Positions 25,097-49,155 of a DNA stretch of 51,272 nt are shown in pieces. The stretch is from a virus. The notes under the pieces were generated by a model that saw only the letters and a list, made by a program, of their open reading frames with translations, was not told where the DNA came from and did not search any database. Numbering within the stretch: the stretch's first letter is position 1; each line of letters begins with the position of its first letter. The DNA is taken from positions 1 through 51,272 of IMG/VR virus record IMGVR_UViG_3300027721_000022, one strand, 5' to 3'. The position numbers and the translations under genes were made by a program.

Positions 25097-26518
25097 CTAG
25101 TTTGTGAACAAGAAGAAGTTATTAGCTCCTAATGTACATAAAGCTCTCTCAGATAAGAAGTGAACCTCCATTGCATCTAAGCTAGAGTTTTGTGCTCCAC
25201 CTGCAGAACCTGTGATCCAAGTCTTGTAACGTCTGTCTTCTGTCTCAGAAGCTCTGTAACGTACGTGTAAGAATGGACGTTTAGCGTTTTTACCAAGAAC
25301 CTGATCGTATACTGTAGTAGATCCAGCTGGAACTAATACACCATTGATAGCACCACCAACGATACCACCTCTAAGGGCTGCATCATTTAAGTACTTCCAG
25401 TCAGTCTTGTAGAAGTCATAACCTCTACGGAAACCTGTGAACCCTAAGTTCAATGCCATCTCCTTGTCGTTATCAAACAAACCATAAGATGTACCACCTG
25501 CTCCGTAAGAGTTTTGAGCTGCTAACATATCGTCAATATCGAAAGAGAACTGACGGTTGATGAACAATACGTTCTCTTCGATAGCACCTTGCTTGTCAAG
25601 TCTCTTGATGATCTCATCAAAGTCAGACAATGCAGTTGGGTTACCACCACTGAATACGTTACCTCTGTTTCCAATAACGTAGAACATACCCTCAGACCCT
25701 TTGTTTCCTACAGCAGTAGTAGCAATAGCTCCAGAAGCTGCCTCAGCAGGAACTGCCTCGATCATAGACATCTCTAAGTAATCCTCGAAACGTAAACGAG
25801 TTTCGTGCTCTGATTTAATGTACCACAAGAATCCTGTAGCTCCATTCTCAGTTGTAACCTCAATCCATCCAATCTGAGCCATGTCAGATCCAGTAACAGC
25901 GTACTTCTCTTTGATGATGATTGGGTTGTTAGAGAAGATAGAGTCAGAAGCCTCAACAGACTCAACCATACCTTGTGTTCCTTTTCTGAACTCAGAACCG
26001 TATACAAAACAACTTACAGTATCTGTAGCTGCAAATGTTTGTCCTGCAGCAGCGTAGTATGCAACATCAAATGTGTTAGCACCAGAAGCAACAGCTGTGA
26101 TGATACCCTTGTTTGATTTTGAAGACGCGTTGTCAGAGATCAATACTGTTTGTCCAACTTTAAACGCAATTCTAGCAGTACCAGAAAGGTTAGAAGATGG
26201 GATCAATGTGTCAGAAACTGTGATTGTTGCAGTATCAGCTCCAGCTGCTGCTCCAGATGCACAGTTTACGTACTTAGTGTGTAGACGCCCTTGTTCAGCC
26301 CACTTGATAAGGTCTGATGTAGATGGCATCTCAGCTCCAACAGCTCTTAAGAAAGATGCTACTGAGCGATTTCCATATCGTTCGAACTCTTTCTCGTAAG
26401 TATCAGGAAGATACTGGTTCAAGAAGTTGAAGTCCGTGATGTAATTTGTTGCAAGAGTTTGTCTCGTTGCGCTTGGTTGTAATGCGAACCCTGGGGTACT
26501 TGCTACTTGTGCTGGCAT
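25097..26518 (-). CDS. Major capsid protein
   Basis: A 473-residue protein with the N-terminal signature TDFNFLNQYLPDTYEKEFERYGNRSVASFLRAVGAEMPSTSDLIKW and EQGRLH, as in HK97-fold major capsid proteins of Bacteroidota podoviruses. A Gly/Ala-rich insertion with an Ig-like or beta character follows (about 85-170), then the helix-strand core with SEHETRLRFEDYLEMSMIEAVPAE. The end has HVRYRASETEDRRYKTWITGSAGG. It follows the candidate scaffold gene and precedes a strong terminator, an arrangement suited to high expression. Its codons are plain and host-like compared with neighbouring genes, which also suggests strong translation. Confidence 0.85.
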   Translation of the reverse strand: MPAQVASTPGFALQPSATRQTLATNYITDFNFLNQYLPDTYEKEFERYGNRSVASFLRAVGAEMPSTSDLIKWAEQGRLHTKYVNCASGAAAGADTATITVSDTLIPSSNLSGTARIAFKVGQTVLISDNASSKSNKGIITAVASGANTFDVAYYAAAGQTFAATDTVSCFVYGSEFRKGTQGMVESVEASDSIFSNNPIIIKEKYAVTGSDMAQIGWIEVTTENGATGFLWYIKSEHETRLRFEDYLEMSMIEAVPAEAASGAIATTAVGNKGSEGMFYVIGNRGNVFSGGNPTALSDFDEIIKRLDKQGAIEENVLFINRQFSFDIDDMLAAQNSYGAGGTSYGLFDNDKEMALNLGFTGFRRGYDFYKTDWKYLNDAALRGGIVGGAINGVLVPAGSTTVYDQVLGKNAKRPFLHVRYRASETEDRRYKTWITGSAGGAQNSSLDAMEVHFLSERALCTLGANNFFLFTN

Positions 26519-30950: not shown

Positions 30951-33197
30951 TTATTTTATAATTTCACTATATCTTCCGTTATTATTATATTTCGCAAAGG
31001 TAATGCTTAATTTCGATTCTTTTTTTGCCGTAAGGTACACATTCTTTTGGTTAGCCATTATAGCTAGTCCAGAGCTGATTGCAGCATCAAACTTTGTACG
31101 ATTATTTATATCAAACTTAGCCCACTCCTCGATTGTTCTTGTGAAATACATGTCACCCATCTCGTCAGAGTCCCTGTACGTTCCCTCCATGTCAAGTCCA
31201 ACGTACTTCTCTATGTACGACTCAATTGCAGCCGCGTGAGACTGCTTAACGTCCTCAGACGAGTTGGGTATACCCCCTAGCTCCTTCTCTGTCTTAGATA
31301 GGTTCGTTACGTGCTTATCTGGCCTGTTCATGGAGAAGCCCCTGTAACCTCTGTTCTTTAGGTGGTACAGCAGCCTAGGCTTATTATTCTCTACAAGTAT
31401 AGGCATTCCGTAGAACACACAAGCCATAAGGACCTCCTCAAAGAATATCTCTGCTGTCTGTGGCCTTGCTATGTACTCAAGGAAGAAGTGGTTGCTAGGT
31501 GCGTCGTCCATATTGAACTTGGTCAGACCGTGAAGTGATCCGTTAGATCCACCACCACCAACTGTCCCAGATATGTCGTACGGGTCACAACCAAACGCAC
31601 CTATGTGGTCGTTACCTGGGTACTTCATTCCGTTCTTGTTTATGACGTTGTTCTGCATCTGGTTGCTAGGTATCCATGACACCAGGAACCTTCCCCTTGA
31701 GTCTGGAGTCCACACAACCCTCGTGTCCTTATTTCCTTCGTACCAGCTGAACGATCCACGTGTAAGAACCCTGTCCTTTATAAGAGAGTCGTTGTAGTCT
31801 ATCTGCTGGTATATCTTTGTAAGGTTGAATATGGATGACTTGCTCTCGTCTCTGAACGCATGAGACTCAGTCCTAGAGAACTGCCTATAGAACTCGTTAA
31901 GAGCATCAGCGTCACCCTTGAGTGACTCGACCTCGTTCTCCCAGTAGTCAACAGCACCAGTCCTTATCATAGACTTGTCTATACTCTGAACTGGCTTTTC
32001 TGGTTCTCTGAACACTGGCATACCGTAGATGTCTATGTACCCCTCAAAGTTCCACTCCATCGGTATATACAGTGAGTACATACCAGACTTAGTCTGTCCG
32101 TTATTGTTCCTTGTCTTTATGTTTGAGTCCTCGTACAGCTTCTTGAAGTTAGACCCTCCCTTTGCTAGCGCGTTAGGTGTTGATCCCATGAGGCACTTTC
32201 CAATGATCCTGCTACCTAATCGTAGACAGGTCTTGGTAACCCTCCAGTTGTTTAGGATGTTATCTGGTGCAAGCCATTTACCGCTCTCGTCGTGTATTAG
32301 TAGCTGTAGCTTCTGACCATCGTATGAGTTATCTCCTGTATTCTTCCAGTCGATTGTGGTGTCAAGACCCTCGATCTCAACCTCACCATCCTCGTACATG
32401 TTCTTCTTTGTTATCTTGGATGCAGGAACCCTGAACGCTAGCTCTGTCTTAGGCTTGTCCATACCATCCTGTATCGGCTTGAAGAAGAACGGGTAGTTGT
32501 TCACGATAGGCACAACCTTGTCCGTAAACATTGTCTTGGCATCGTTACCAGTCTTGGACAGTATCCCAAGTCTTGAGTCCTTCGCAAGGGTTCCTATGTT
32601 GGCCAGCTCGCTTGATCCCATGAAAGAGAAACCAGAACGTCTGATCTTTAGGTAGGTCATCCCGAAGCACCTGTCGTCAGCCTTGCAGGCCTCCCAGAAT
32701 ATAAAGAACACCCTGTTAGCCTCCCTGAAGTCTGGAAGTCCAACATCAATCTTTGTCCACTGCAGGTACATGTACTGAGATCCAGTTATGTACGTGTCAA
32801 TTCCGTTGTTCTTGAAGAAGAACCCGTTCTCTCTACGGTCAAACTCACCCTCTATGTAGTCAACCCACTTAGCCTTGAACTCCTTTGACATCGTGTGCCA
32901 CTGGAATATAGACTTTATATTTGATAGTTCCCTTGGATAGTCAGCTGGTTCCCAGTACTGATTCTCCTTCTTCTCGTCCCTTTTATATACAATTTTTGGG
33001 ACGGATGGCAGCGCTATATTGAGACCATTTATCTCGTATATGTCACCAATTGTTCCGTCCTTAGATATAACTACCAGATCGTGCTTCTCGTCATAACCAT
33101 AGCCCCAAGACTTGGCCTTGTTCTTCATGTGTATGGTGTTAGCAGGAAGGAAGTCGCTAAGCCTTGTGTATAGATTATTTTGATCTTTTTTCTGCAA
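30951..33197 (-). CDS. terL: Terminase large subunit
   Basis: A 748-residue packaging ATPase-nuclease. The ATPase has a deviant Walker A-type loop K184-IRRSGFSFMGSS, a Walker B strand LQLLIHDE with D303 and E304 as the catalytic pair, and a coupling motif CLMGSTPNALAKGG. The nuclease half starts at the strand GAFGCDPYD with its first metal-binding Asp, and later acidic residues near LDMEGTYRDSDEMGD and TKFDAAISSG would complete the site. The deviant loop and long N-terminal region (1-150) match terminases of Bacteroidota podoviruses. It overlaps the 90-residue gene upstream by 23 bases. Confidence 0.9.
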   Translation of the reverse strand: MQKKDQNNLYTRLSDFLPANTIHMKNKAKSWGYGYDEKHDLVVISKDGTIGDIYEINGLNIALPSVPKIVYKRDEKKENQYWEPADYPRELSNIKSIFQWHTMSKEFKAKWVDYIEGEFDRRENGFFFKNNGIDTYITGSQYMYLQWTKIDVGLPDFREANRVFFIFWEACKADDRCFGMTYLKIRRSGFSFMGSSELANIGTLAKDSRLGILSKTGNDAKTMFTDKVVPIVNNYPFFFKPIQDGMDKPKTELAFRVPASKITKKNMYEDGEVEIEGLDTTIDWKNTGDNSYDGQKLQLLIHDESGKWLAPDNILNNWRVTKTCLRLGSRIIGKCLMGSTPNALAKGGSNFKKLYEDSNIKTRNNNGQTKSGMYSLYIPMEWNFEGYIDIYGMPVFREPEKPVQSIDKSMIRTGAVDYWENEVESLKGDADALNEFYRQFSRTESHAFRDESKSSIFNLTKIYQQIDYNDSLIKDRVLTRGSFSWYEGNKDTRVVWTPDSRGRFLVSWIPSNQMQNNVINKNGMKYPGNDHIGAFGCDPYDISGTVGGGGSNGSLHGLTKFNMDDAPSNHFFLEYIARPQTAEIFFEEVLMACVFYGMPILVENNKPRLLYHLKNRGYRGFSMNRPDKHVTNLSKTEKELGGIPNSSEDVKQSHAAAIESYIEKYVGLDMEGTYRDSDEMGDMYFTRTIEEWAKFDINNRTKFDAAISSGLAIMANQKNVYLTAKKESKLSITFAKYNNNGRYSEIIK
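30995..31002 (-). promoter_or_regulatory. Possible portal promoter within the terminase 3' end
   Basis: The minus strand reads TACCTTTG here, inside the last codons of the terminase gene, and would give a leader of about 110 bases before the portal ATG at 30878. The 72-base gap before the portal is one of the longest in the operon, which fits a promoter with a leader. Confidence 0.45.
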
Positions 33198-33447
33198 ATC
33201 CCTGTATTTTAGGTTCCGATACCTTAACCTCCTCGGTTAGTTTGTCGTTCTCTTGCTCTATCCTGTTCAGTATCTGGAAGGCATCTTCGATTGCAAGCCT
33301 TTTGGTAGCTGCCGCGTTCTTTAGCTTGTCAGCAGATAGGTCTGTATCCATACCAGTTATAATCTCGTCCTCTGCAACCTTTATTAACTCATTAACTGCC
33401 TTGTATCCAGCAGCAATGATCTTCTGTTTTATTATGTTGTGGTCCAT
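33175..33447 (-). CDS. Small helical protein upstream of terL
   Basis: A 90-residue helical protein (AAGYKAVNELIKVAEDEI, then LKNAAATKRLAIEDAFQILNRIEQENDKLTEEV), overlapping the terminase start. This type with the ADKLKNAAATKRLAIEDAF pattern is found next to large terminase genes in related phages. Position suggests a small terminase subunit or a packaging accessory, but no helix-turn-helix is clear. Confidence in the gene is high and in the role low. Confidence 0.65.
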   Translation of the reverse strand: MDHNIIKQKIIAAGYKAVNELIKVAEDEIITGMDTDLSADKLKNAAATKRLAIEDAFQILNRIEQENDKLTEEVKVSEPKIQGFAEKRSK

Positions 33448-34004
33448 CTGATTGTAATGTTTTTGGTGGTCATCCTGTACAGCTTCTCGTCGTTTATATA
33501 GAATGGGTACTCACTGTCTGGCTCAAACGAGATCTCATCTCCAATGCTCAGACCAAGGTCTAGCAACTCTTGATTTATATAGACAATGGTACCCATCAGT
33601 GGCTCCTCCTTGCTGTTCTTATTTATAATAGACTCTATTTGTTTTAATGGCTTGATAAAGCAGTACTTGGAGTGTGTGTTCCACTCACCGTTCTGGTTGT
33701 ACATGAAGTACTGCTCGTCGTCTATAAAGAATAGGTCGTCCTTAAAGAAGCTGGCTCCACTCTTTTCTCTACCCTTCATGTCGTAGTATACCTTGAACAC
33801 GTTGTGGTGAACTAGAAGTATATCGCTAACTTTAACTGGCCCAATATATCCTATTGGGGTACTTACAACCTCTGCAAGCCTGTTAGACACAGTATGGTCC
33901 TCCTTAGACGTGCTGGTTATAAAGTCAACCCCACCAATATCTTTTATATTATCGTATCGCCTACCATCTAATGGTCGGACGACAAACATATCTGGGGATC
34001 TCAT
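33432..34004 (-). CDS. Beta-rich protein, possibly GroES-like fold
   Basis: A 190-residue protein with many short strands and Gly turns: GPVKVSDILLVHHNVFKVYYDMKGREKSG, MGTIVYINQELLDLGLSIGDEISFEPDSEYPFYINDEKLYRM. The second half in particular reads like a small beta barrel with the V-x-x-GD-x-V pattern of co-chaperonins and related folds. Proteins of this kind occur next to terminase genes in phages of Bacteroidota. It may be a structural or assembly protein. The true GroES-like gene is at 46076, so this would be a distant relative at most. Confidence 0.6.
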   Translation of the reverse strand: MRSPDMFVVRPLDGRRYDNIKDIGGVDFITSTSKEDHTVSNRLAEVVSTPIGYIGPVKVSDILLVHHNVFKVYYDMKGREKSGASFFKDDLFFIDDEQYFMYNQNGEWNTHSKYCFIKPLKQIESIINKNSKEEPLMGTIVYINQELLDLGLSIGDEISFEPDSEYPFYINDEKLYRMTTKNITIRWTTT

Positions 34005-34236: not shown

Positions 34237-35970
34237 TTATATTCCTCCGTCTGTTATAGTCCAGTTATTTGGCGCTCCTATTAGTATATTTTTACCTGGT
34301 GTTCCTGCAGCTGTATACTTAGCTGTTCCAAAACTTATTGATATGTTTGGTTTAACGCTTGGTAATGAACTCCACCCATTATATATCGCATCTAGATTAG
34401 TTGATGAGAAATTTATATTTGTTTTTCCAAGCATAAAATTACTAAAGTTAGTCACGTTACTCACATTCCAAGATCCAATGTTTTGGTTAAATGCAGTGGC
34501 TCCACTAAACATATTACCCATACCAGTAACTGAGATTGTATTCCAATTTCCTATAGGTTGGTTAAATGCAGTATTTAGTCTAAACATATTAGACATGTCA
34601 GTAACACTACTCATTGTTGAACCCACTCTCTCCCAGTTTGACAATGGTTGATTAAATATAGAAGTAAAAAACATACTTGAAATGTTATTTACCTTAGTCA
34701 TATTCCACCCACTAATATCTCTATTAAATGCTGTTGTATATTGAAACATCTCAGTCATAGTAATAGATGTAACTGATGCATCTCCACCAATATTCCAATC
34801 ATTCATCTTAGATAAAGTAGCCTCATCTCCATTATTAAAATTAGCTGCATTGCACATCCTTTGAAATGTTGTTACCTTACTTACATTCCAAGGCGTAGTC
34901 CCTGTTCCTAGGTTTGAGTTGAATGCTGTTGCATTTGAAAACATAGCACCCATATTGGTACATGCAGAAGTGTCCCATGTGAGTTGGTTTTCTACAGCTG
35001 ATAAATATCCATTGTTAAATATTGACGCACCAGCAAACATATTATTCATAGTGTTGACTTTGCTAGTATTCCATCCGCTTATATATCTATTGAATTTCAC
35101 TGCACCAGCAAACATTAAAAACATACTAACATTAGACACAGTGTTTATAGCCCAATTATTAATAGGAGCTGAGTTATCCCCATTATTAAAGTTAGATGCT
35201 ATAGCAAACATATTTGTGAATACTGTAACCTTACTCATATCCCATGGTGTTGTTCCTGTTCCTAGGTTTGAGTTGAATGCGTAGGCTTGATAAAACATAC
35301 CAGACATAGTCACTGATGCTGATATAGTATTTATGGTCCAAGTTAATTGATTAGATACTCCAGATGCGTATCCATTATTAAAATTTACTGCACTATTAAA
35401 TGCATCAGAATAATTTGTTACTTTAGAAACATTCCAATTTGATAAATTTTGATTGAAACTACTAGCAGATCTAAATATTGAATCAATAATTGTTACATTA
35501 CTAACATTCCATTCATTAATTCTTCCTATTGTAGTTATTGACGAACAATTTTGAAATGTACCTACTAAACTAGTCACTCCAGTTAAATCAGGAATATCAG
35601 TTATTCCAGACATGGTCACATTAGAACAACCATTAAAAGAACCTGATCCTAATTTTAATTTACCCCAACTAGCTATTGTAAGTATCTTTAACTTATCACC
35701 ACCATTATTAAACTGCCATATACCTACTGTTCCAGTTGCTCTAAGAGTATATGTTCCAGCTACTGAATAAGTATGTGTTCTCTGAGAGTAAGACGTGACA
35801 TTTGTTGTACTGCCATCTCCCCAGTCTATCCAGAAGTTATACGTACCACCAGATACTAGTGGCAGCTCTATCTGCGTAGATGAAGAAATTCCAGCATTAT
35901 CTGTCTTCCAAGTAGATTGGAATATCCCAGATTTAATTGACCCATATATTTGAAACGCTAGATTATTCAT
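34237..35970 (-). CDS. DUF285/BspA-like repeat adhesin (receptor-binding candidate)
   Basis: A 577-residue surface protein. Residues about 18-100 resemble a PKD-like beta domain (NFWIDWGDGSTTNVTSYSQRTHTYSVAGTYTLRATG). From about 140 to 550 there are DUF285 (BspA-type) repeats of about 25 residues with the consensus MFxxAxxFNxxIxxWNxSxVTxM, a solenoid common in adhesins of Bacteroidota. Repeats with FNSNLGTGTTPW occur twice. Some repeat units are identical in DNA over 25 bases. Encoded beside the collagen-like fibre gene, it is a candidate receptor-binding protein. AT-rich compared with the terminase side, suggesting transfer. Confidence 0.8.
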   Translation of the reverse strand: MNNLAFQIYGSIKSGIFQSTWKTDNAGISSSTQIELPLVSGGTYNFWIDWGDGSTTNVTSYSQRTHTYSVAGTYTLRATGTVGIWQFNNGGDKLKILTIASWGKLKLGSGSFNGCSNVTMSGITDIPDLTGVTSLVGTFQNCSSITTIGRINEWNVSNVTIIDSIFRSASSFNQNLSNWNVSKVTNYSDAFNSAVNFNNGYASGVSNQLTWTINTISASVTMSGMFYQAYAFNSNLGTGTTPWDMSKVTVFTNMFAIASNFNNGDNSAPINNWAINTVSNVSMFLMFAGAVKFNRYISGWNTSKVNTMNNMFAGASIFNNGYLSAVENQLTWDTSACTNMGAMFSNATAFNSNLGTGTTPWNVSKVTTFQRMCNAANFNNGDEATLSKMNDWNIGGDASVTSITMTEMFQYTTAFNRDISGWNMTKVNNISSMFFTSIFNQPLSNWERVGSTMSSVTDMSNMFRLNTAFNQPIGNWNTISVTGMGNMFSGATAFNQNIGSWNVSNVTNFSNFMLGKTNINFSSTNLDAIYNGWSSLPSVKPNISISFGTAKYTAAGTPGKNILIGAPNNWTITDGGI

Positions 35971-37620: not shown

Positions 37621-39741
37621 TTAAAATATTGTCCAGTATGCGTTAATATTACTCTCTTTTCCAACTCTGTTTGTATTTGACTCCCAACCTATAATCTCCT
37701 GTATATACCCATCAAAATAGTTAGTACCACCTGTTCCTATTTGTATATTTGTAGTTGCGTTTAAACGTAATGTAACACTAGTAACGGCTTTTACACCATT
37801 CCACCATCCACTTGCTACTGCACTGTTTGAAGGGTCTGGAGCTATTAGTTCGTACAACCTTCTATTGAGAGGTGTAGGTTCAAAAAATATTTGAGTCGTG
37901 GTGCTACCATATGCAGCATAAGCACTGTTACTACTGTTAAAAGGAAAATAAAATCTTCCATTTGGTGTGGTACTTCCTAATAAATAACCAATTTGCGAAC
38001 CAGTGGTTGAAACAAATTGCCCTACAAAATAACTTGACATATTGTTTACATTCGCAGTTGTGTCTGCCATACTTAAGTTTTGACTTGATGACCTTGTAAA
38101 TCTTACCGCAACTTTTCCGCCTGATAATTCTAAAAATCCAGCGTTAACTAATCTGGGTTGTTGTCCAGGAGTTGTCTGCACTGGGTTTCTTGCATTACCA
38201 CTTTGGTCAAACCATGTTGTAATAAAAATACTTTGATTTATTGTTATTAAGTCAGGGTTTGAATAACCTTGTGTTGTTGCTGCTGCAAACTGACCTAGAT
38301 TAGTAGCCAGTGTAGTTCCGCCTCCTACTATAGTAAAGATAGGGCTATTTAATGAAACAATACCAGTCGTTGTGTCAAAACCTACATCAACGGTTACGGT
38401 TGTAGCACCAACAGTTCTTCTGACTCTTAAAGAATTTCCTGTATAAAGAGTTCTTAATTTACGCAGTGAATAAGCGTGGTGTGCTAATGGATATATATCT
38501 AAAATCAAACTACCCACAGCAGCTGTCATAAATACTTGTTCATTGCCATAAGATGTAGTTACACCATTTGTAGCGTAAGCTCTAACATAGTAACTTACTG
38601 ATGATGATAATCCAGTTATAGCACTTGTGAAAGGACCATTTCCACTTCCGTCTATTGTTCTTGAGTTTGCTATTGTTGGACTACTCGATGTGTTCCAACA
38701 AACCCCTCTTTGCGTTATTGCATCTCCTCCGTTTTCTGTTATATTACCACCGCAGGTTGCCGTAGAGCCAGTTATATCTGTTACGGCATTAGTTGTAAGC
38801 GTTGCGATTCCATTTATTGTAGTGAACGTAACATTGTTAGCGTAAGCTGTCCCACTTGCTATTATCGCGTAAGCTCTAATATTATAGGTTGTATTTGGGG
38901 ATAATTCTGTAAGGTTTATTGAGTATGGCCCGAGTCCTGTAGGTATATATTCTATTTTATTATTCGCTATTATATTTGGATTAGATAGTGTACCCCAGGC
39001 AATACCTATCTCACTAGGTATTTCAGTATAGTCAGTTGGTATATTACCACCCGTCGGCACTGACCTTGCTAGAGCAGTTCCTAGCGTAGTTGTAAATCCA
39101 GGTATTGTAATGTCTTTCTTAATTAATCTAACAGAGTACCCTCTATTTGGTAACCCACTTGTATTAAAATCTAAGTTATCATCGTTGTAAGCCATAGATA
39201 AAAGACTTGTACTTGCAGCACCAAATGGCCACCAGTAACCACTAGCTTTTAAACCTACAAATGTTCCATTAACTGCTGCAAAACCTCCACCTCTAGCGTT
39301 AAATATATTAGTAGATAAAGCGCCTGTATTAGGGCTTAACCAGTAATCAAATCCAAACTGTTTTAGTTTGCCTGCTGATAAAGCGTTTCCACCGTAATAA
39401 TTTGATAAGTTAGTCCAATCGTCAAGTGTTGCAACTCGCCAACCATCAGGAGCTATGTCCTTTATTATTCCACTTCCATCTACTCCATTCACGGCATACC
39501 AATTATATAACCTGCCGTATAAAACAGCACTTGAGGAATCATTATTATAAAATCTACAAGCTCCTGTAGTTAGTGTTCCCCAACCCGAACCAGCTATTCT
39601 TGGAATAGGTGTTCCATCACTGTATACTGAAGTGTTTAGATTAAATTGATCCCATATCTGACCATTAGGAATTTGTACTTCCGTTGGAACGTATGGAACA
39701 AAAGTCTGCAAACTTGATAAGTAATAAACCGCTGGATTCAT
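37621..39741 (-). CDS. Fibre with FISUMP, FN3-like and arabinofuranosidase-like domains
   Basis: A 706-residue adhesin. Residues about 25-215 form a FISUMP domain (YGRLYNWYAVN, APDGWRVATLDDW, GYWWPFGAASTS, RGYSVRLIKK). FN3-like repeats follow from about 215 to 410 (NTTYNIRAYAIIASGTAYANNVTF, TATCGGNITENGGDAITQRGVCWNTSS). The C-terminal 290 residues resemble the arabinofuranosidase B-type beta-sandwich or LamG unit often at the tips of Bacteroidota phage proteins (AYSLRKLRTLYTGNSLRVRR, FITTWFDQSGNARNPVQ). It may bind or cut surface glycans. Domain names are by recognition. Confidence 0.8.
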   Translation of the reverse strand: MNPAVYYLSSLQTFVPYVPTEVQIPNGQIWDQFNLNTSVYSDGTPIPRIAGSGWGTLTTGACRFYNNDSSSAVLYGRLYNWYAVNGVDGSGIIKDIAPDGWRVATLDDWTNLSNYYGGNALSAGKLKQFGFDYWLSPNTGALSTNIFNARGGGFAAVNGTFVGLKASGYWWPFGAASTSLLSMAYNDDNLDFNTSGLPNRGYSVRLIKKDITIPGFTTTLGTALARSVPTGGNIPTDYTEIPSEIGIAWGTLSNPNIIANNKIEYIPTGLGPYSINLTELSPNTTYNIRAYAIIASGTAYANNVTFTTINGIATLTTNAVTDITGSTATCGGNITENGGDAITQRGVCWNTSSSPTIANSRTIDGSGNGPFTSAITGLSSSVSYYVRAYATNGVTTSYGNEQVFMTAAVGSLILDIYPLAHHAYSLRKLRTLYTGNSLRVRRTVGATTVTVDVGFDTTTGIVSLNSPIFTIVGGGTTLATNLGQFAAATTQGYSNPDLITINQSIFITTWFDQSGNARNPVQTTPGQQPRLVNAGFLELSGGKVAVRFTRSSSQNLSMADTTANVNNMSSYFVGQFVSTTGSQIGYLLGSTTPNGRFYFPFNSSNSAYAAYGSTTTQIFFEPTPLNRRLYELIAPDPSNSAVASGWWNGVKAVTSVTLRLNATTNIQIGTGGTNYFDGYIQEIIGWESNTNRVGKESNINAYWTIF

Positions 39742-42569
39742 TATTGCAAGTTATTAATTAATAAATAAACTGTACTGCCGTTCTTTGTCAATAAGGCAGT
39801 GCTTCCTGCACTTCCACTTAGAATAGCTCCGTTAGGTGTTATTAATGTTCCTGCAGTAAATATAAATGTTATAGTAACTCCAAGTTCACTTAACTTAGTA
39901 TAACTTGCAATAAAATCTGTAGATGCAGCATTTGCATTAATTGTAATTGCTGTTGCTCCATTATTAATCATTACATTCCTACCATTCTGAGAATAAGATA
40001 CATCACCAGATGTACCAGTGTCCTGGGTAGTTATTGTATTTCCAGGGAAAGAACTTATTATTATATTATTAACCGATTCAGCAGCACTTGTATCTAAAGT
40101 GAATGTTCCAGCAGCAGTCATCTTTACAAATGCTGGTGTTGAATATGTTAACCCTGATAACGATGTTAGGTTAGTGCTTAACGCTTGTTTTCCGCTAAAT
40201 TGACCTTGAATACCACTTGTAACCCCATCTAAATAACCTATCTCAGTTGAAGACACATCTCCTATTGAGGTTGTGCTTGGTAATACAATAGTCCCAGTAA
40301 ATGTTTTTGCTCCAGCAAATGTCTGTGCTCCTATTGAAACTAATCCCTTCTGAGTTGCGCTTGCGTCTGGGGTTAAGTCGACAACAAGTGAATGCTCCCA
40401 CAGTGAATCAGCGTCATTCCAATATAACACTTCGTTATTTAGTGCAGGAACCTTCTCAACATCGGCTAAGTCTCTTAAGTAAAGGTTAGGTATTATCGCA
40501 GAAGATATGGCAGCTGTACCCCTTACTGGGTCAGCACCTCCAAATAGAAACTCATAAGTAGCCCCACTGCCTCCACCTGATTGAATTCCATAGAACTTTA
40601 AGACCACTCTGTCCGTACTTAAGAAGATACCATTATTCCATAGTGCTATTGAAATATACTCAATATAAACTCCTCCGTTAGCAGGTACGGCAACTGGAGC
40701 GCTATCTGCTATTTTAGTTTCGACTCCTGATACCTCTCTCTTATAAATACTGAAGAAGAAGTCTGCCCCACTAGATGTAGAGCCACCTGTTCTTCTTATC
40801 TTACCAATTACTGAAAAGTTAAACACACCTGGATTACCTAATAGGATACTAGGATCACTAATTACTGCTCCACAAAAAGTAGGGGATGCTAAAGTACCAG
40901 TAATTGTAGGAGTTGGTACATTAACTGCAGTTGTGTTATATCTTGAATCAGCTATGTTTCTAACTAAAGCCGTGTAACCTGATATAACTGGGTCGGGTGA
41001 TGTTGTGGCGTATAAATCCAACGTAGAAGGTAGATCAGCAGAGGTTAGGTATGTGTTATTATCAACTGATCCGTCAGCTTTTAAAAATTGAAAGTCGAAT
41101 CCTCCCTCTTTTATTAATTTTTGAGCAGTTAATTCTCCAGCATTATTAATAGATGCTTTTACTACTCCTGATTTTTTAAAATTAGCAATGTTAGCAGTAG
41201 CTGAGTCAGTGTCAAAACTTGCACCTACTCCTTCTTCTGAATATCCCTGAACACCTATTCCTGTTGAAGAATATCCATTAACACCTATTCCACTATCAGA
41301 AATTCCAAAAATACCTTTACCTGATGAAGATTGTCCTGTGATAGCACTTGAACTTCCACTAACTTGAGAAATTATTGCATTTGTTGTACTTGCTCCTAAG
41401 TTAGTAACCTCTTGAAGATTTTGATTTCCCCCAATAGAGGATAACGCCACGGTGGATCCATTATCTAATAGAACATTAGTCCCTGTTCCGCCTATTTTTA
41501 TAAATGAATTCGCAGTGATATCCCCAGCTTGATTTACTGTTAATTTATTAACTCCATTTTTGTTTACTTCAATGGGATTTCCTGTTGACGAAGTTCCACT
41601 ATCTATAACAACTCCTTTATTTGTACTTCCTAAATTAACATCAACAGATATTGTTCCATTTCCATATACTTCAATTCCTTTACCTGAAGTTGAATAAGCA
41701 TATAATCCAACTCCAGTAGCTTCTGAAACAGCAGATACTCCAATTCCTATGTCAGTTGATGCAAAAACACCTGCTCCATCATAACTGTTTCCATCTACGC
41801 CATAATATGTTCCAATCCCTTTTACACCTGTTGCACCCTCTCCATAAACTCCTATTGAACCCTCTCCATAAACTCCTGTCGATACTGCAACTCCATAAAC
41901 TCCTGCGAATTCACTTGATTCTCCTTTGATACCATATCCTTGAGATGAAAATGAAGTAATACCATTTGCTCCTCCATCTCCAACAGTAATAGTTATAGGA
42001 TTTGTTGTAGTCGATCCTTCATCTGTAACCTGCTGTAAGTTCTGCAAGTCATCTCCTACATTAATATCAATAACAGATATCATGTAGTCCTCGTCCTCCT
42101 CTATAAACCCGTTTCCATCCTTAAAGTCTAAGTTTACAACAAGGAAGTTAGGCTCTGGTAGGTACTCATCTACAGAAACTATCTTGTAGCTTCCAAATAT
42201 ATTTATATTCTTAGCCTTGTAAAGCAAAACATTTGTTCCTACTAAGAAGTTAAGGAACTCTACTACATCATTTCCCTTTAGTGTAGTCTTACTTAGTAAG
42301 AATGTGCTTATAGCAGAAAAATTAACCGTCTGTCCTATCTCTGTCTCAAATGACAGTGTTCCAGTAGGCCTTGTCTCTGGTGGAGTTATTGTGAAGTACT
42401 TGTACAGTAGATCTACCCCAGTGTTTATTACCTGGTTGTTATTAAAGTAATGTGATAGCTTCCTTGGAGTAAAGTTCTTTGTTTTATTATACGTGTTTAC
42501 GTCCGTTCCTATCCACTTGTCGTCTGCCGTTACGTACTCATCTATATTATAAACACTTATTTTTGTCAT
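39741..42569 (-). CDS. Long tail fibre protein, 942 residues
   Basis: The N terminus (MTKISVYNIDEYVTADDKWIGT, with NKTKNFT) is shared with the 242-residue fibre and is probably the virion anchor. A long repeat shaft follows (about 190-500) with Gly-containing repeats such as GVYGEGSIGVYGEGATGVKG and GIGVNGYSSTGIGVQGY, typical of trimeric beta shafts. The C-terminal part has beta domains (TFAGAKTFTGTIVLPSTTSIG) and ends with a tip (NGSTVYLLINNL). The DNA for the shaft is AT-rich with local tandem repeats near 41840-41880. Probably the main adsorption fibre. Confidence 0.75.
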   Translation of the reverse strand: MTKISVYNIDEYVTADDKWIGTDVNTYNKTKNFTPRKLSHYFNNNQVINTGVDLLYKYFTITPPETRPTGTLSFETEIGQTVNFSAISTFLLSKTTLKGNDVVEFLNFLVGTNVLLYKAKNINIFGSYKIVSVDEYLPEPNFLVVNLDFKDGNGFIEEDEDYMISVIDINVGDDLQNLQQVTDEGSTTTNPITITVGDGGANGITSFSSQGYGIKGESSEFAGVYGVAVSTGVYGEGSIGVYGEGATGVKGIGTYYGVDGNSYDGAGVFASTDIGIGVSAVSEATGVGLYAYSTSGKGIEVYGNGTISVDVNLGSTNKGVVIDSGTSSTGNPIEVNKNGVNKLTVNQAGDITANSFIKIGGTGTNVLLDNGSTVALSSIGGNQNLQEVTNLGASTTNAIISQVSGSSSAITGQSSSGKGIFGISDSGIGVNGYSSTGIGVQGYSEEGVGASFDTDSATANIANFKKSGVVKASINNAGELTAQKLIKEGGFDFQFLKADGSVDNNTYLTSADLPSTLDLYATTSPDPVISGYTALVRNIADSRYNTTAVNVPTPTITGTLASPTFCGAVISDPSILLGNPGVFNFSVIGKIRRTGGSTSSGADFFFSIYKREVSGVETKIADSAPVAVPANGGVYIEYISIALWNNGIFLSTDRVVLKFYGIQSGGGSGATYEFLFGGADPVRGTAAISSAIIPNLYLRDLADVEKVPALNNEVLYWNDADSLWEHSLVVDLTPDASATQKGLVSIGAQTFAGAKTFTGTIVLPSTTSIGDVSSTEIGYLDGVTSGIQGQFSGKQALSTNLTSLSGLTYSTPAFVKMTAAGTFTLDTSAAESVNNIIISSFPGNTITTQDTGTSGDVSYSQNGRNVMINNGATAITINANAASTDFIASYTKLSELGVTITFIFTAGTLITPNGAILSGSAGSTALLTKNGSTVYLLINNLQ

Positions 42570-44274: not shown

Positions 44275-44604
44275 CTATTTCTTTTTTTTAGCAACCTTTC
44301 CTGTCATCTCTCTTGACTCTAAGAACTCTTTACTAATGGTTCTTCTTTGTTTTGTGTACTCCTTCTCTTTTGCGTACTTCTCTGCTAATTTTTTTGCAGC
44401 TGTAGTTCCAAGTCTCTCCTGACCTAGAACCTCTCCAGATCCAGATATCATACGAACTGTTCTAGTAGATCCAGAACCAACCGTGTCTAATTTTTTTTCA
44501 TAAGGACCAGTCTTTAACGGAGAAGTCTCCTTCTCGTATCCCTTTGGGTTTCCAACTATCTCTGTATCCTTGTTAAATGTAGGTAATCCTCTCTTGTATG
44601 CCAT
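44275..44604 (-). CDS. Basic hypothetical protein, 109 residues
   Basis: A Lys/Glu-rich protein: AYKRGLPTFNKDTEIVGNPKGYEKETSPLKTGPYEKKLDTVGSG, then a helical tail with KKLAEKYAKEKEYTKQRR and ending GKVAKKKK. The high charge resembles other small proteins in this cluster (43849-45572), which may be packaged with DNA or bind it. No domain recognised. Confidence 0.6.
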   Translation of the reverse strand: MAYKRGLPTFNKDTEIVGNPKGYEKETSPLKTGPYEKKLDTVGSGSTRTVRMISGSGEVLGQERLGTTAAKKLAEKYAKEKEYTKQRRTISKEFLESREMTGKVAKKKK

Positions 44605-44608
44605 TTTT

Positions 44609-44884
44609 TTATTTGTTTTTAGTTCCTCTTGCTCTCTTGTCTCCAGGCATCGCGCTCTTTGATCCTCGGTTCGATGACGCCTTCTTCATTACTATGCCAC
44701 CCTTAGTGTGGCTAGCGTCTAGTCCGTCCCCGTTACCATAGGTCCCACGTTTCCTGTTCACAGCGTTAAGTTCAACACGCTTTCTTACCTGATCAGGAGA
44801 CTTGTTGTACTCCTTCTGGTAGTCGTTGTGCCTCTTCTTAGCCTCTGGGTTAGCTGCGTAGTATTTGGCTGTCCTTCCTGGCAT
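44609..44884 (-). CDS. Basic conserved phage protein (ELNAVNRKRGTYGNGDG type), 91 residues
   Basis: A very basic protein with PGRTAKYYAANPEAKKRHNDYQKEYNKSP, then VELNAVNRKRGTYGNGDGLDASHTKGG and a basic end. The motif with TYGNGDGxDxSHT recurs in small phage proteins near structural genes. It probably binds DNA or RNA, but that rests on charge alone. Its start overlaps the stop of the 37-residue gene. Confidence 0.7.
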   Translation of the reverse strand: MPGRTAKYYAANPEAKKRHNDYQKEYNKSPDQVRKRVELNAVNRKRGTYGNGDGLDASHTKGGIVMKKASSNRGSKSAMPGDKRARGTKNK

Positions 44885-44997
44885 TATTTTTTCTTGTTCG
44901 CGATCATCTTCATGAAGTCAAACTTCTCTTTCTTCTGAACTGGTTTCACTTCTTTTTTAGTCATCTTAGACGAACACTTTGCTGCTACTTTTTTCAT
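44884..44997 (-). CDS. 37-residue basic microprotein
   Basis: From ATG (44995-44997) to TAA (44884-44886), coupled to genes on both sides. The product is mostly Lys (KKVAAKCSSKMTKKEVKPVQKKEKFDFMKMIANKKK). Small, very basic proteins of this sort form a run from 44275 to 45572. Function unknown. Confidence 0.5.
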   Translation of the reverse strand: MKKVAAKCSSKMTKKEVKPVQKKEKFDFMKMIANKKK

Positions 44998-45122
44998 TTT
45001 TTCTTTGTTTTACCTGCTTTAGACAGGGCGATTGCTATTGCCTGAGTTCTAGGTTTTCCACTCTTAATCTCTGTTCTTATGTTAGAAGATATTACCTTCT
45101 GACTACTTCCCTTTTTTAACAT
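44994..45122 (-). CDS. 42-residue conserved basic phage protein
   Basis: From ATG (45120-45122) to TGA (44994-44996), overlapping the next ATG (ATGA). The product KKGSSQKVISSNIRTEIKSG, then KPRTQAIAIALSKAGK is a familiar short phage protein, where the (S/K)xxNIxTEIxxGKPxxQAxAIAL pattern recurs in many phages and prophages. A helical DNA-binding or packaging-related role is possible. Confidence 0.75.
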   Translation of the reverse strand: MLKKGSSQKVISSNIRTEIKSGKPRTQAIAIALSKAGKTKKK

Positions 45123-45312
45123 TTCCTTTTAGGTATGACATCTTTCCGTTCAACGACTTCGCTGACTCGTACTGACTTGCTTTCTTCTTGATCTTCTTCT
45201 CTTGCTCTAACATCTGCTTTGTAGGCTTCTTTCCAGATCCTTCGTTTGCTCTGATGTTGTCCCAGAGTCCTCTCTTGGAGGTGCTCCCGTCTTTTCTCTT
45301 TAACAGTTCCAT
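45103..45312 (-). CDS. Small basic conserved phage protein (GLWDNIRANEGSGKKPT type)
   Basis: A 69-residue protein with LWDNIRANEGSGKKPTKQMLEQEKKIKKKA, a pattern common in small phage proteins placed in the same cluster as the DUF6321-like one. The overlap with both neighbours supports it. The role is unknown. Lys-rich and likely to bind nucleic acid or be in the virion. Confidence 0.75.
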   Translation of the reverse strand: MELLKRKDGSTSKRGLWDNIRANEGSGKKPTKQMLEQEKKIKKKASQYESAKSLNGKMSYLKGNVKKGK

Positions 45313-45614: not shown

Positions 45615-46079
45615 ATGAAATACAAGCCATACGCAGACTACCTCAAGTACTGGAGGGCAATAAAGACGCTAATTCGTCACAAGTACAACCTAAGCAGTTC
45701 CGACATAGACATCCTACTGTTCGTCTACAGCGAGCAGTACTTCCGTCACAGGCAGTTCTGGGAGTTCGAGTCTGGACTCACCTGGGAGAAGGACCGATTC
45801 AAGCGCATGATTGCCGACGGGTGGATCACGCTATGGAGGCCGAACAAGAACGGTGAGGCTGCCCTGTACGAGGCCTCCTACAAGACTCGCAGGGTTATAA
45901 CAGACATATACGAGAAGATCGAGCTCAAGGTTCACGTCTCAGAGAACCCAGTCTCTAACCCAATGTTCAGGACCGACGCGTCATATACCGAGAGAGCCAC
46001 CAGGCCCATTATTCGTAAGATGAATCGTACGCGTAAGGAGCTCAAGAGGCTCAGGGATATAGAAGATCAGAAGATCTAG
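45615..46079 (+). CDS. MarR-like winged-helix protein (regulator candidate)
   Basis: A 154-residue protein, the only rightward gene between 4554 and 50403. Residues about 10-90 suit a MarR-like winged helix (LKYWRAIKTLIRHKYNLSSSDIDILLFVYSEQYF, then FESGLTWEKDRFKRMIADGWITLW for the recognition helix and wing), followed by a helical region and a basic C terminus (IIRKMNRTRKELKRLRDIEDQ). It has its own promoter, divergent from the small basic genes, and could control that promoter. It ends convergently with the GroES gene (4-base overlap). AATCAAATG leader. Confidence 0.7.
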   Translation: MKYKPYADYLKYWRAIKTLIRHKYNLSSSDIDILLFVYSEQYFRHRQFWEFESGLTWEKDRFKRMIADGWITLWRPNKNGEAALYEASYKTRRVITDIYEKIELKVHVSENPVSNPMFRTDASYTERATRPIIRKMNRTRKELKRLRDIEDQKI

Positions 46080-46333
46080 AGGACAACCACGATGTCTCTC
46101 TCCATGATCACGGTGTACTTGATGTCGTTTACCAGCATCGTGTACCCAGCGTTCTTGTCGTAGTAGATTATGTCTCCCTCCTTCACGCAGTCCACGTTGG
46201 TTCCAGGCTTCACAACCTCTCCCTTCTTGTACCTGAACTGTTCTGTCTCGTTTCCAGTGAGCAGAAGACCCGACTGGGTCCTCATCTGCTCTTCTATTGT
46301 GTTGATTACTAGGTATTTATTTATTGGTTGCAT
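46076..46333 (-). CDS. GroES-like co-chaperonin
   Basis: An 85-residue protein of cpn10 type. The pattern is PINKYLVINTIEEQMRTQSGLLLTGNETEQFRYKKGEVVKPG, DCVKEGDIIYYDKNAGYTMLVNDIKYTVIMERDIV. The SGLLLTG segment fits the mobile loop that docks to GroEL, and EGDIIYYDK is the barrel strand. It is shorter than the usual 95-97 residues. It is separated from the GroEL gene by two small genes in the same operon, so the phage carries its own chaperonin pair, probably to fold its capsid or tail proteins. Confidence 0.85.
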   Translation of the reverse strand: MQPINKYLVINTIEEQMRTQSGLLLTGNETEQFRYKKGEVVKPGTNVDCVKEGDIIYYDKNAGYTMLVNDIKYTVIMERDIVVVL

Positions 46334-46334
46334 A

Positions 46335-46613
46335 CTATATTGTTATTGATAATACCTCTCTTATAATCTTTAAGTCTGGATCTATTACGTACCCTAGCTG
46401 CTTCATTGTGGCGGCCTCTAGCGATACCCCTTTCTTTTGACAAACCCATACCTCCTGATCAAACGCAGAGTCTATTATATCGTAATTTTCATCCCTTGTT
46501 ACGAAAAATATTGCAACCTTTACTTGTTTCATTTTTTTCTCTGGTGTAGGCCAACTCGTTGTACCTGTGCCATTACCATAAAGTAATGATCCGTTGCTGA
46601 TTGTTGTTTCCAT
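46335..46613 (-). CDS. Hypothetical protein between GroES and GroEL genes
   Basis: A 92-residue protein. The first part (TISNGSLLYGNGTGTTSWPTPEKK) is low complexity. From residue 28 (MKQVKVAIFFVTRDENYDIIDSAFDQEVWVCQKKGVSLEAATMKQLGY) it is a compact alpha/beta unit. An internal start at that Met would also make a sensible protein. The start overlaps the stop of the next gene. Function unknown. Confidence 0.6.
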   Translation of the reverse strand: METTISNGSLLYGNGTGTTSWPTPEKKMKQVKVAIFFVTRDENYDIIDSAFDQEVWVCQKKGVSLEAATMKQLGYVIDPDLKIIREVLSITI

Positions 46614-46954
46614 TATTGTTTTTGTATTAAATCTCCAATTCTATGCTGAAGAATATGTAAATATGAAATCATAGCGTTCCTTTGAGCATCTAATAATACC
46701 CATTGAATATCTCCTACAAATTCATACGCAGGATTGTTTTCAATAAAGTCGTCTATCTTACGTAATTTTTCAGATAATTCGTCGTCTTCTTGTTGTAACC
46801 TTTCAATAAGTGTTTTCCCTGTTATTGATTTAATAACTTCTCTTACTTTAGAAGCTCTCTCGTAATCTTTCATGACTACATATTTTGTTTTTAGATTTTC
46901 CAAAGACTCTAATGCCTCTTCTTCTTCTTTATAACCTCCTGTTGTTGCTTCCAT
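46613..46954 (-). CDS. Coiled-coil protein with UVR-like motif
   Basis: A 113-residue helical protein. Residues about 20-45 (KTKYVVMKDYERASKVREVIKSITG) resemble the UVR interaction motif. The following part (LIERLQQEDDELSEKLRKIDDFIENN to MISYLHILQHRIGDLI) is related to the 64-residue protein at 48562. The two lie on either side of the GroEL gene. This second module recurs as short proteins in phages of Bacteroidota. AT-rich compared with GroEL. Function unknown. Confidence 0.65.
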   Translation of the reverse strand: MEATTGGYKEEEEALESLENLKTKYVVMKDYERASKVREVIKSITGKTLIERLQQEDDELSEKLRKIDDFIENNPAYEFVGDIQWVLLDAQRNAMISYLHILQHRIGDLIQKQ

Positions 46955-48561
46955 TATGCTCGTGTCATTGTTATAATTGCGTTAGTACTAAGTATTGTTG
47001 TGGCCACACTGACAGCGTTCTTCAGCGCGTTCTTCGTAACCTTCAGCGGGTCTATGATCCCCATGTCGTACATGTTACCGTACTGGTCATTCTTGACGTC
47101 GTACCCCGTGTTGGTGTTTGATGCACATCCAGTCATGATCTCGTACCCGTCGTTGCCTGCGTTCTCGTGTATCTGCAGCAGAGGTGCCTGTATCGCCCTG
47201 GCCATGATCTGCATAGCTACGTACTGCTCTGCACTGATGTCCTCTATCATGTCATCAGCGTCTACAATGATCCTGTAAGACTCGTTGAACAAGGCTAAAC
47301 CTCCTCCTGGAAGGATTCCCTCCTCCAAAGCAGACCTGACAGCGCATACCGCGTCGTCTACCCTGTCCTTTCTCTCCTTCTGCTCCAGGTCCGAGTTCCC
47401 TCCAACGTATATAACAGCGATGCTACCCGTCAAGCTGGCAATCCTGTTCTTGATGAACTCCTTGTCCTGCTTCTTCTGCGCAGCCTCGTGAGCTACCCAA
47501 AGCTGGCTTACCCTGTCGTCTACGTCCTGCTGCTTGCTCTCTGGCTTGATGATGGATGATGAGTCCCTTCCTATAATGATCCTTTCTGCTCTACCTAAAT
47601 CCTCGATTGATATCAGGCTAAGGTCGTCCCCTGTGCTCTCCGAGAAGTACTTCGCACCCAAAGACAGCGCGATGTCGCTCATCAGCTCGTTCATCTTGTA
47701 ACCGAACTCTGGTGGTGCAATGTTACAGAACTTCAGCTTGTTCTTCACCACGTTGACTGCCAGTGTGTTGATCACGTTCTGGTTGCACGGCCCAATGATC
47801 AGTAGCTTCTTGTTCTCCTGTATCACCGTCTTCAACACGTTCTCAATCGACAGGATGTTGGAGATCTCCTGGTCTGTAACAAGTACCAGCACGTCGTCCA
47901 TGATGCACTCGTCGTTCTTGAAGTCGTTCACGAACATATTCGAGGTGTAACCCCTTCCGATCTTGATGCCATTGGTGAACTCTGAGTAGGTCTCAGCCGT
48001 CTGTGAGTTCTCAATCGTTACGATCCCATTCTTACCAACCTTAGTGTACGCATTAGAAATGATCTTACCTATCTCGTTATCGTTGTTAGCCGAGATGGAT
48101 GCCACGTTGTGAAGAGTCTTACCGCTAACCTTCTTGGATGATCTCTCCAGGCTGTGGATGATACCGTTAGAAACACTGTTGATGTTCTTGATTACCTCCG
48201 TCACGTTGTGCTTCTCGTTCAAGAGCTCCTGTCCCTGTCTCACGATGGCCTCCGTAAGCACGATAGCTGTCGTGGTTCCATCTCCAGCACTGGTGGCTGT
48301 CCTGTCTGCGGCTTCTTTCATCATCTTGACTGCCAGGTTCTCCACTGGGTCTAGCAAGAAGATTGACTTAGCAACCGTTACCCCATCCTTTGTAACTGTG
48401 ATACCATGAGTATGGTTCGGTGACTCGATTAGAACCGTACGACCCCTTGGTCCTAGCGTGCTCTTAACCGCCTTGGCAATTGTAGTTATGCCTGTAATTA
48501 GTTTTGATCTTCCTTCCTCGTCGAACAGTAGTTCCTTGGGACTGTATCCAAATTCTTCCAT
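46954..48561 (-). CDS. GroEL-like chaperonin
   Basis: A 535-residue protein with the full cpn60 layout: N-terminal equatorial part (AKAVKSTLGPRGRTVLIE, TKDGVTVAKSI), AADRTATSAGDGTTTAIVLTEAIV for the ATP site (GDGTT), an intermediate domain, an apical part (GIKIGRGYTSNMFVNDFKNDECIMDDVLVLV), the later Asp in RVDDAVCAVRSALEEGILPGGG, and YDMGIIDPLKVTKNALKNAVSVATTIL. The key ATPase residues are in place. It lacks a long GGM-type tail. Probably folds phage virion proteins together with the GroES-like protein. Rare in phages. GC-rich, like the virion genes. Confidence 0.92.
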   Translation of the reverse strand: MEEFGYSPKELLFDEEGRSKLITGITTIAKAVKSTLGPRGRTVLIESPNHTHGITVTKDGVTVAKSIFLLDPVENLAVKMMKEAADRTATSAGDGTTTAIVLTEAIVRQGQELLNEKHNVTEVIKNINSVSNGIIHSLERSSKKVSGKTLHNVASISANNDNEIGKIISNAYTKVGKNGIVTIENSQTAETYSEFTNGIKIGRGYTSNMFVNDFKNDECIMDDVLVLVTDQEISNILSIENVLKTVIQENKKLLIIGPCNQNVINTLAVNVVKNKLKFCNIAPPEFGYKMNELMSDIALSLGAKYFSESTGDDLSLISIEDLGRAERIIIGRDSSSIIKPESKQQDVDDRVSQLWVAHEAAQKKQDKEFIKNRIASLTGSIAVIYVGGNSDLEQKERKDRVDDAVCAVRSALEEGILPGGGLALFNESYRIIVDADDMIEDISAEQYVAMQIMARAIQAPLLQIHENAGNDGYEIMTGCASNTNTGYDVKNDQYGNMYDMGIIDPLKVTKNALKNAVSVATTILSTNAIITMTRA

Positions 48562-48756
48562 TTAATTTAATTTAATTCTTTCTCCTAATATGTAACTGTA
48601 CTGCATCATGTTATTAAGTTGAATCACCATAAGTGTTTTTTCATAATCGCTTAACTTGCTAAACAAACTATTGTTTGCAATAAAACTATTCAACTTATCT
48701 AACTTGTCTTCTAATTCGTCTTTTTCTGTTATAAGACGATCTAAAAATGTTCTCAT
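48562..48756 (-). CDS. Small helical protein, paralogue of the 46613 gene
   Basis: A 64-residue helical protein: RTFLDRLITEKDELEDKLDKLNSFIANNSLFSKLSDYEKTLMVIQLNNMMQYSYILGERIKLN. It aligns with the C-terminal half of the 113-residue protein at 46613. Similar short proteins are widespread in Bacteroidota phages. It is the first gene of the GroEL operon, with a promoter at 48783. AT-rich. Function unknown. Confidence 0.7.
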   Translation of the reverse strand: MRTFLDRLITEKDELEDKLDKLNSFIANNSLFSKLSDYEKTLMVIQLNNMMQYSYILGERIKLN

Positions 48757-48791: not shown

Positions 48792-48824
48792 AAAAAAAAC
48801 GCATAACATTTAAGCTATGCGTTT
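48792..48824 (-). terminator. Terminator after the small gene at 48848
   Basis: A 9-bp perfect stem, AAACGCATA with TATGCGTTT, a ten-base loop and an eight-base U-tract on the minus strand. It ends the small transcript from 49295 just before the GroEL promoter. Confidence 0.85.
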
Positions 48825-48847
48825 CTCGATTTCCTTCGTCGATGAAC

Positions 48848-48976
48848 TTATTTCTTCTTCTTAGCAAGATTTGCTTTATCTGCCTTAGCCTTTAGCACTC
48901 CTGGATTAGTTTTAGCTGGACCCGTGTATATATTTCCAAGGGATCCACCTGTCTGAGGTTTTTTCTTTTCTATCAT
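48848..48976 (-). CDS. Small basic protein, 42 residues
   Basis: An ORF from ATG (48974-48976) to TAA (48848-48850), overlapping the previous gene's stop. The product IEKKKPQTGGSLGNIYTGPA then KTNPGVLKAKADKANLAKKKK is Lys-rich and flexible. It lies right before a terminator and is co-transcribed with the genes at 48973 and 49146. Function unknown. Confidence 0.6.
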   Translation of the reverse strand: MIEKKKPQTGGSLGNIYTGPAKTNPGVLKAKADKANLAKKKK

Positions 48977-49155
48977 TTCTTCTTCTTCATTATGATGTTG
49001 TGCATAGGAGCCTTCATCTCCTTTGACATTGCCATGGCGCTAGCCATCATCATAGACTCCTCTACAATCTCTTTTCTCTCGTGCATGGCCTTTTTCTCTT
49101 TTGCCATCCTGTACAGACCAATCTCTTGAACTGGCATCTTCTTGTTTATACCCAT
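48973..49155 (-). CDS. Small Met/Lys/Glu-rich protein, 60 residues
   Basis: A helical, Met-rich, charged protein (GINKKMPVQEIGLYRMAKEKKAMHERKEIVEESMMMASAMAMS, ending KKKK). The start overlaps the stop of the next gene by 10 bases and its stop overlaps the gene at 48848. Low complexity but with coupled overlaps on both sides. Function unknown. Confidence 0.55.
   Translation of the reverse strand: MGINKKMPVQEIGLYRMAKEKKAMHERKEIVEESMMMASAMAMSKEMKAPMHNIIMKKKK

Follow-up and report, generated by a model that had tools for sequence, protein, structure and literature searches.

A divergent GroEL–GroES pair in a phage lineage, with a probable tandem double-GroES protein encoded beside the terminase

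Does a phage that encodes both a chaperonin and a co-chaperonin possess a folding machine of its own, and if so, where did it come from and what might it fold? The question is raised by the window, a single, linear virus record in IMG/VR (51,272 bases), whose minus strand carries genes for a group I chaperonin of 535 aa (groEL, 46954-48561) and a co-chaperonin of 85 aa (groES, 46076-46333). Both lie upstream of a block of packaging and head genes on the same strand, which includes terminase, portal and structural proteins. By every sequence test the pair is real and predicted to be functional, is old in phages, and is of a kind already described. The most interesting part is the three-part set that the pair may form with a Cpn20-like protein of 190 aa encoded beside the terminase, together with the eroded ring–ring interface of the GroEL.

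The larger protein matches PF00118 (E 3.7e-62, 211 bits, cut-off 34.3) and phrog_5725, 'chaperonin groEL' (E 1.4e-135), and its AF2 model aligns with Thermus Cpn60 over 514 residues at 3.2 A (VIA-align, Z 37.3), displaying the GroEL fold along its full length. All 18 ATP-site positions tested in a residue table are those of E. coli; D52, D87, GDGTTT, D398, GGG and D495 are identical, and the motifs T30-P33, K51-G53, G86-T91, D398, G414-G416 and D495 (E. coli numbering) are intact. The full-length cpn60 with intact ATP-site motifs that a preliminary description had reported is thus borne out, and alignment reveals no loss of these key residues. Among 35 non-redundant members of the lineage, the 18 positions are 97.5% kept, as compared with 58% at all bacterially conserved sites. 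The window protein is a divergent GroEL, since its score against the strict NCBIfam GroEL equivalog TIGR02348 is 474.3 bits, below a cut-off of 582.1 that is a naming threshold and not a mechanistic feature. It passes the looser NCBIfam subfamily model NF009487 (503.5 versus 352). The protein has no GGM tail like that of E. coli GroEL.

The protein encoded at 46076-46333 is, from its sequence, the predicted co-chaperonin partner of this GroEL and corresponds to the short cpn10-like protein noted earlier. It matches PF00166 over residues 2-84 (E 3.9e-11, 43.3 bits, cut-off 21.1) and phrog_3188 (E 9e-16). Alignment places a mobile loop, SGLLLTG, with the expected hydrophobic triplet within SGLLL (residues 21-25), where G22 and L25 are invariant in 53 sequences.

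Assignment of the pair to one operon, also proposed in the preliminary description, stands in part. The two genes do belong to one tight run of four minus-strand genes, in which each stop codon overlaps or abuts the next start (TAATG, TAATG, TAGTATG), so that a single operon from groEL to groES is plausible. They are not adjacent, however, because two small genes intervene. The first (46613-46954, 113 aa), whose start overlaps the groEL stop, belongs to the crAss001_48 family (PF21825, E 7e-17) and is found in some relatives only; the second (46335-46613, 92 aa) has no family match in Pfam or phrog searches. Another minus-strand gene of the crAss001_48 family (48562-48756, 64 aa; PF21825, E 2e-18) lies directly upstream of groEL, which is therefore flanked by this family on both sides. 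In most loci the distance between groEL and groES varies from 2 to ~1,000 bases across relatives, as would result from repeated gain and loss of small genes. A hairpin scan detected a terminator-like element on the minus strand where the run begins upstream of groEL (48794-48827, 14 pairs followed by a T run). It is conceivable that this hairpin marks a transcription-unit boundary, but the indication is weak because such sites are no more numerous in the region than in shuffled sequence. At the other end, a convergent plus-strand gene (45615-46079) abuts the 3' end of groES.

Searching the phage collection at the DNA level gave no match to the locus, and protein searches were therefore used. 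GroEL relatives were found in this way in 237 of 50,697 phage records (about 0.5%). The best match, Podoviridae sp. ctfjg026 (MW202828.1, 60,850 bases, circular), is a member of the same lineage with the same gene order; its GroEL, GroES and 190-aa protein are 58%, 46% and 55% identical to those of the window. Its groEL and groES are directly adjacent, whereas the window has two genes between them. A ctfjg026 gene annotated 'repressor protein' has the same place and orientation as 45615-46079 of the window. IMG/VR yielded 129 confirmed relatives, and each of the 80 that were fetched carries groES on the same strand downstream of groEL. Among all fetched loci that hold both genes, 95 of 98 have groEL before groES, the reverse of the order in E. 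coli. Elemovirus contributes 68 records with both genes.

Viral GroEL and GroES were reportedly found to be prevalent by Marine et al. in 2017 (ISME J), with a gene order that tracks GroEL phylogeny. Some phages are known to carry both chaperonin partners (PMC7185714), and GroEL has been described in 36 of 78 genomes of phi38:1-like marine Bacteroidetes viruses (PMC5332604). The preliminary view that phages with both partners are rare is thus correct in that GroEL relatives occupy a small fraction of phage records, but not for this lineage, where the pair is constant, nor for Elemovirus, and such phages had already been published. With GroEL of phi38:1-like Bacteroidetes phages on record, the pair is a further lineage among known viral chaperonins. 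The phi38:1-like phages (Callevirus and Elemovirus; 'group 2' of PMC5332604) resemble the window lineage in their podophage-like genomes of 60-73 kb and in the possession of groEL, a small cpn10 and a large terminase-side cpn10. They differ in that their GroEL is only 36-38% identical to that of the window. Callevirus places groES first, whereas the window lineage places groEL first, and phi38:1 has many tRNA genes, whereas none were found in the window.

Median dN/dS is 0.049 for GroEL and 0.053 for GroES, close to the terminase value of 0.031; the 190-aa protein has a median of 0.106. The GroEL and GroES genes are under strong purifying selection; these low ratios, together with retention of the ATP site, indicate that the genes are maintained. 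A PADLOC check for a role in defence systems gave no match for GroEL, GroES or the 190-aa protein.

In the reading that we consider likely, the window comes from a lytic-type phage of ~60 kb, kin to Bacteroidota podophages, which uses its own group I chaperonin and GroES to fold a late phage protein; we infer both the client and the host, aquatic bacteria. GroEL subunits would assemble into a seven-membered ring that binds the non-native late protein, and ATP binding would then allow the phage GroES to cap the ring by way of its mobile loop and enclose the client for folding. The likeliest client would be capsid-sized, such as the probable major capsid (structural) protein of 473 aa (25097-26518, phrog_13704), by analogy with gp31 and gp23 of T4. 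The idea in the preliminary description that the pair is tuned for very large virion proteins finds no support, since the largest proteins of the window, with 2,899 aa and 1,471 aa, cannot be enclosed whole in a GroEL–GroES cage with a capacity of ~60 kDa (PMC5780408). That limit is not absolute, because the chaperonin of phage EL is reported to handle beta-galactosidase (PMC5934643). In phi38:1, mass spectrometry shows that the phage GroEL is made during infection (PMC13288928).

A second co-chaperonin-like gene, which the preliminary description missed, lies on the minus strand at 33432-34004, with the gene for the terminase large subunit (30951-33197, minus strand; phrog_6681, E 3e-168) as its syntenic neighbour. 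Databases name its 190-aa product "cpn10", and it matches phrog_13932, 'co-chaperonin GroES' (E 2e-19). The closest PDB structure to its AF2 model (pLDDT 77, pTM 0.72) in a Foldseek search is Chlamydomonas Cpn20, a tandem double GroES (7ekq_R, E 1.6e-4; VIA-align Z 9.1 over 160 residues). Next come Cpn10s, which align either to residues 1-104 or to ~107-188, and T4 gp31 (Z 5.8). Profile comparison identifies the C-terminal half as a Cpn10 domain (97.4%, E 1.5e-11). This half passes PF00166 in Callevirus (28.0) and phi18:3 (32.6) at a cut-off of 21.1; the window copy alone, at 16.6, falls under it. The N-terminal half matches GroES profiles weakly (26-50% probability) but in register, and residues 1-104 of the model match the Cpn10 fold with Z 7.3. 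The family gives a weak match to the phage GroES profile alone (21.5% probability), and a sequence search of solved structures with the 190-aa protein found no GroES; the relation emerged only with a broader GroES profile and from the predicted fold. No internal duplication is visible in the sequence, since the two halves have no profile match to each other (2%). The protein is thus probably, though not provably, a tandem double GroES as judged from its model. Like plastid Cpn20, its best structural match, it would have two GroES-like domains in tandem, but it is only 11-13% identical to the plant and algal proteins, and the mobile loop of the second domain is shortened in the window lineage. 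In the N-terminal half, GGVDFI occupies the site of GGIVL in E. coli GroES. It falls in a stretch of low model confidence, residues 11-40, which is the least certain part of that domain and coincides with the expected mobile-loop site, as would be anticipated for a flexible loop.

The 190-aa gene is conserved alongside GroEL in the window lineage, Elemovirus and Callevirus. It is present in 27 of 28 GroEL-bearing contigs (32 contigs tested), a measure of co-occurrence and not an unbiased rate, because some of the 32 were chosen for carrying the gene. In Pervagoviridae, 'chaperonin cpn10' is one of the three proteins that make up the strictest core (PMC8776804). Phage phi18:3 has a 200-aa counterpart adjoining terL and a small cpn10; a search of this phage for GroEL detected none, and the counterpart would therefore depend on the GroEL of the host or have a different role. 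One 73.8-kb relative (L022, G002) has two diverged copies of the 190-aa gene, at 6336-6899 and 69377-69916. In another (L049, G011) the gene, at 39847-40406, is broken by in-frame stops, through sequencing error or decay.

What the tandem protein does is a more speculative matter. We tentatively entertain a three-part chaperonin, in which phage GroEL and single-domain GroES are joined by a tandem lid that caps GroEL in a late-stage cage. The tandem protein would be made with the head genes and would cap the phage GroEL or that of the host, either alone or in a mixed lid of seven domains, for example three double and one single. The resulting cage, built perhaps on a single-ring GroEL, would serve capsid or packaging proteins. 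To our knowledge, no Cpn20-type lid occurs outside plastids and apicoplasts, and a phage tandem lid would, if real, be the first; a literature search for tandem GroES in phages found no description. Should such a lid work, phages would share the architecture of plastid Cpn20, probably arrived at independently, and the problem of matching an even number of lid domains to a seven-fold ring could be studied in small culturable phages (Elemovirus, Callevirus).

It is rather unlikely, if far from negligible, that the 190-aa protein instead serves in the head or in packaging, with the GroES fold put to a new use, and does not act as a co-chaperonin. Such a role would suit the position of the gene within the packaging block, where it immediately precedes a same-strand terL in 83 of the 86 loci that hold it, and the short C-terminal mobile loop in the window lineage; phages of the phi18:3 type, moreover, keep the 200-aa counterpart beside terL where no GroEL was found. 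Yet the best fold matches are all co-chaperonins, and these include gp31, the GroES analogue by which T4 folds its capsid protein, albeit a single-domain protein that works with host GroEL, T4 having no GroEL of its own. The uncertainty of residues 11-40 is also what a flexible mobile loop should produce. The MS/MS-based 'structural protein' notes for phi18:3 cover neighbours and not the counterpart, gp096, which is mildly against a virion role.

At five bacterially conserved positions of GroEL, taken to represent inter-ring contacts of the E. coli structure (A12, K105, A109, R452, E461), 8.6% of residues are kept in the 35 non-redundant members, as compared with 58% expected from random sites conserved in bacteria (p 0.008), and the same positions are variable within the lineage (p 0.0006). 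V464 has also been exchanged, in most cases for Asp or Glu, and S463 varies. In E. coli, the single-ring mutant SR1 has its changes at R452, E461, S463 and V464. EL gp146 and OBP gp246 are likewise phage-encoded chaperonins with ring–ring behavior unlike that of E. coli GroEL, and they work through single rings (PMC5934643). From the loss and variability of inter-ring residues, the changes at SR1 positions and these precedents, it is a reasonable prediction that the phage GroEL forms a single ring or has an altered ring–ring interface. The EL chaperonin is far more divergent (26% identity), and both it and that of OBP lack a co-chaperonin, whereas GroES is always present in the window lineage. 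Eroded ring–ring contacts in a GroEL that keeps a GroES would open the requirement for a double ring to direct test.

The apical groove is also remodeled. It retains Y199, F204 and L237, but 81 of 82 lineage sequences have Glu in place of L234, and all of them have Lys or Arg in place of E238. The same change of L234 to Glu in E. coli GroEL is said to abolish binding of substrate and GroES (Fenton 1994), so that neither kind of binding is assured in the phage protein, where Glu is almost invariant. Combined with the SGLLL loop of the phage GroES, the altered groove (L234 to Glu, E238 to Lys) suggests a private fit between the two phage partners.

Divergence of the apical groove and inter-ring positions might alternatively mean that GroEL has moved to another job, in the virion or in host takeover, with encapsulated folding secondary or lost. 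This is improbable, given the intact ATP site and the constant presence of a GroES whose mobile loop is canonical. GroEL often contaminates preparations of virions, which tempers a further observation in favor of another job. That observation is a methylated GroEL peptide found in free virions of phi38:1 (PMC13288928).

Folding of a late protein by a phage-adapted pair, the reading we favor, also accords with the history of the GroEL. Comparison with host chaperonins, suggested in the preliminary description, yields a single clade of lineage GroELs (SH-aLRT 100) apart from 43 bacterial GroELs, none of which falls inside. The stem of this phage-only clade measures ~1.5 changes per site, and the closest bacterial GroEL among those fetched is 41% identical, so the window GroEL is not a recent host copy. 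The tree is able to reveal recent transfers, because it places some other phages among bacterial GroELs: E. coli is joined by Acinetobacter phage MD-2021a and two Vibrio phages, and the Bacteroidota GroELs by Bacteroides phage DAC16. Long branches are involved where Elemovirus GroEL joins the lineage, and we place no weight on that grouping. That the pair is a bacterial groESL operon, recently acquired and kept as redundant host cargo, is scarcely credible despite those near-host copies in other phages, since recent acquisition is rejected by the GroEL tree, the gene order is reversed, and the pair is conserved in 80 of 80 relatives. A scan of genome collections found a few MAG contigs (L168-L177) with phage-type GroEL (50-64% match); these cluster with the phage GroELs and probably represent misbinned phage.

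Six short basic ORFs on the minus strand (44275-45312 and 48848-49155) flank the chaperonin genes and end in lysine runs (VAKKKK, ANKKK, KTKKK, VKKGK, LAKKKK, IIMKKKK). Several recur in near relatives (L005, L007, L009, L012, L022 and L025) and hardly in L001 and L002. Elsewhere in the window, a 577-aa protein of DUF285 repeats (34237-35970) and a 706-aa protein with a Fib_succ_major domain (37621-39741) are probable adhesion or tail-associated proteins.
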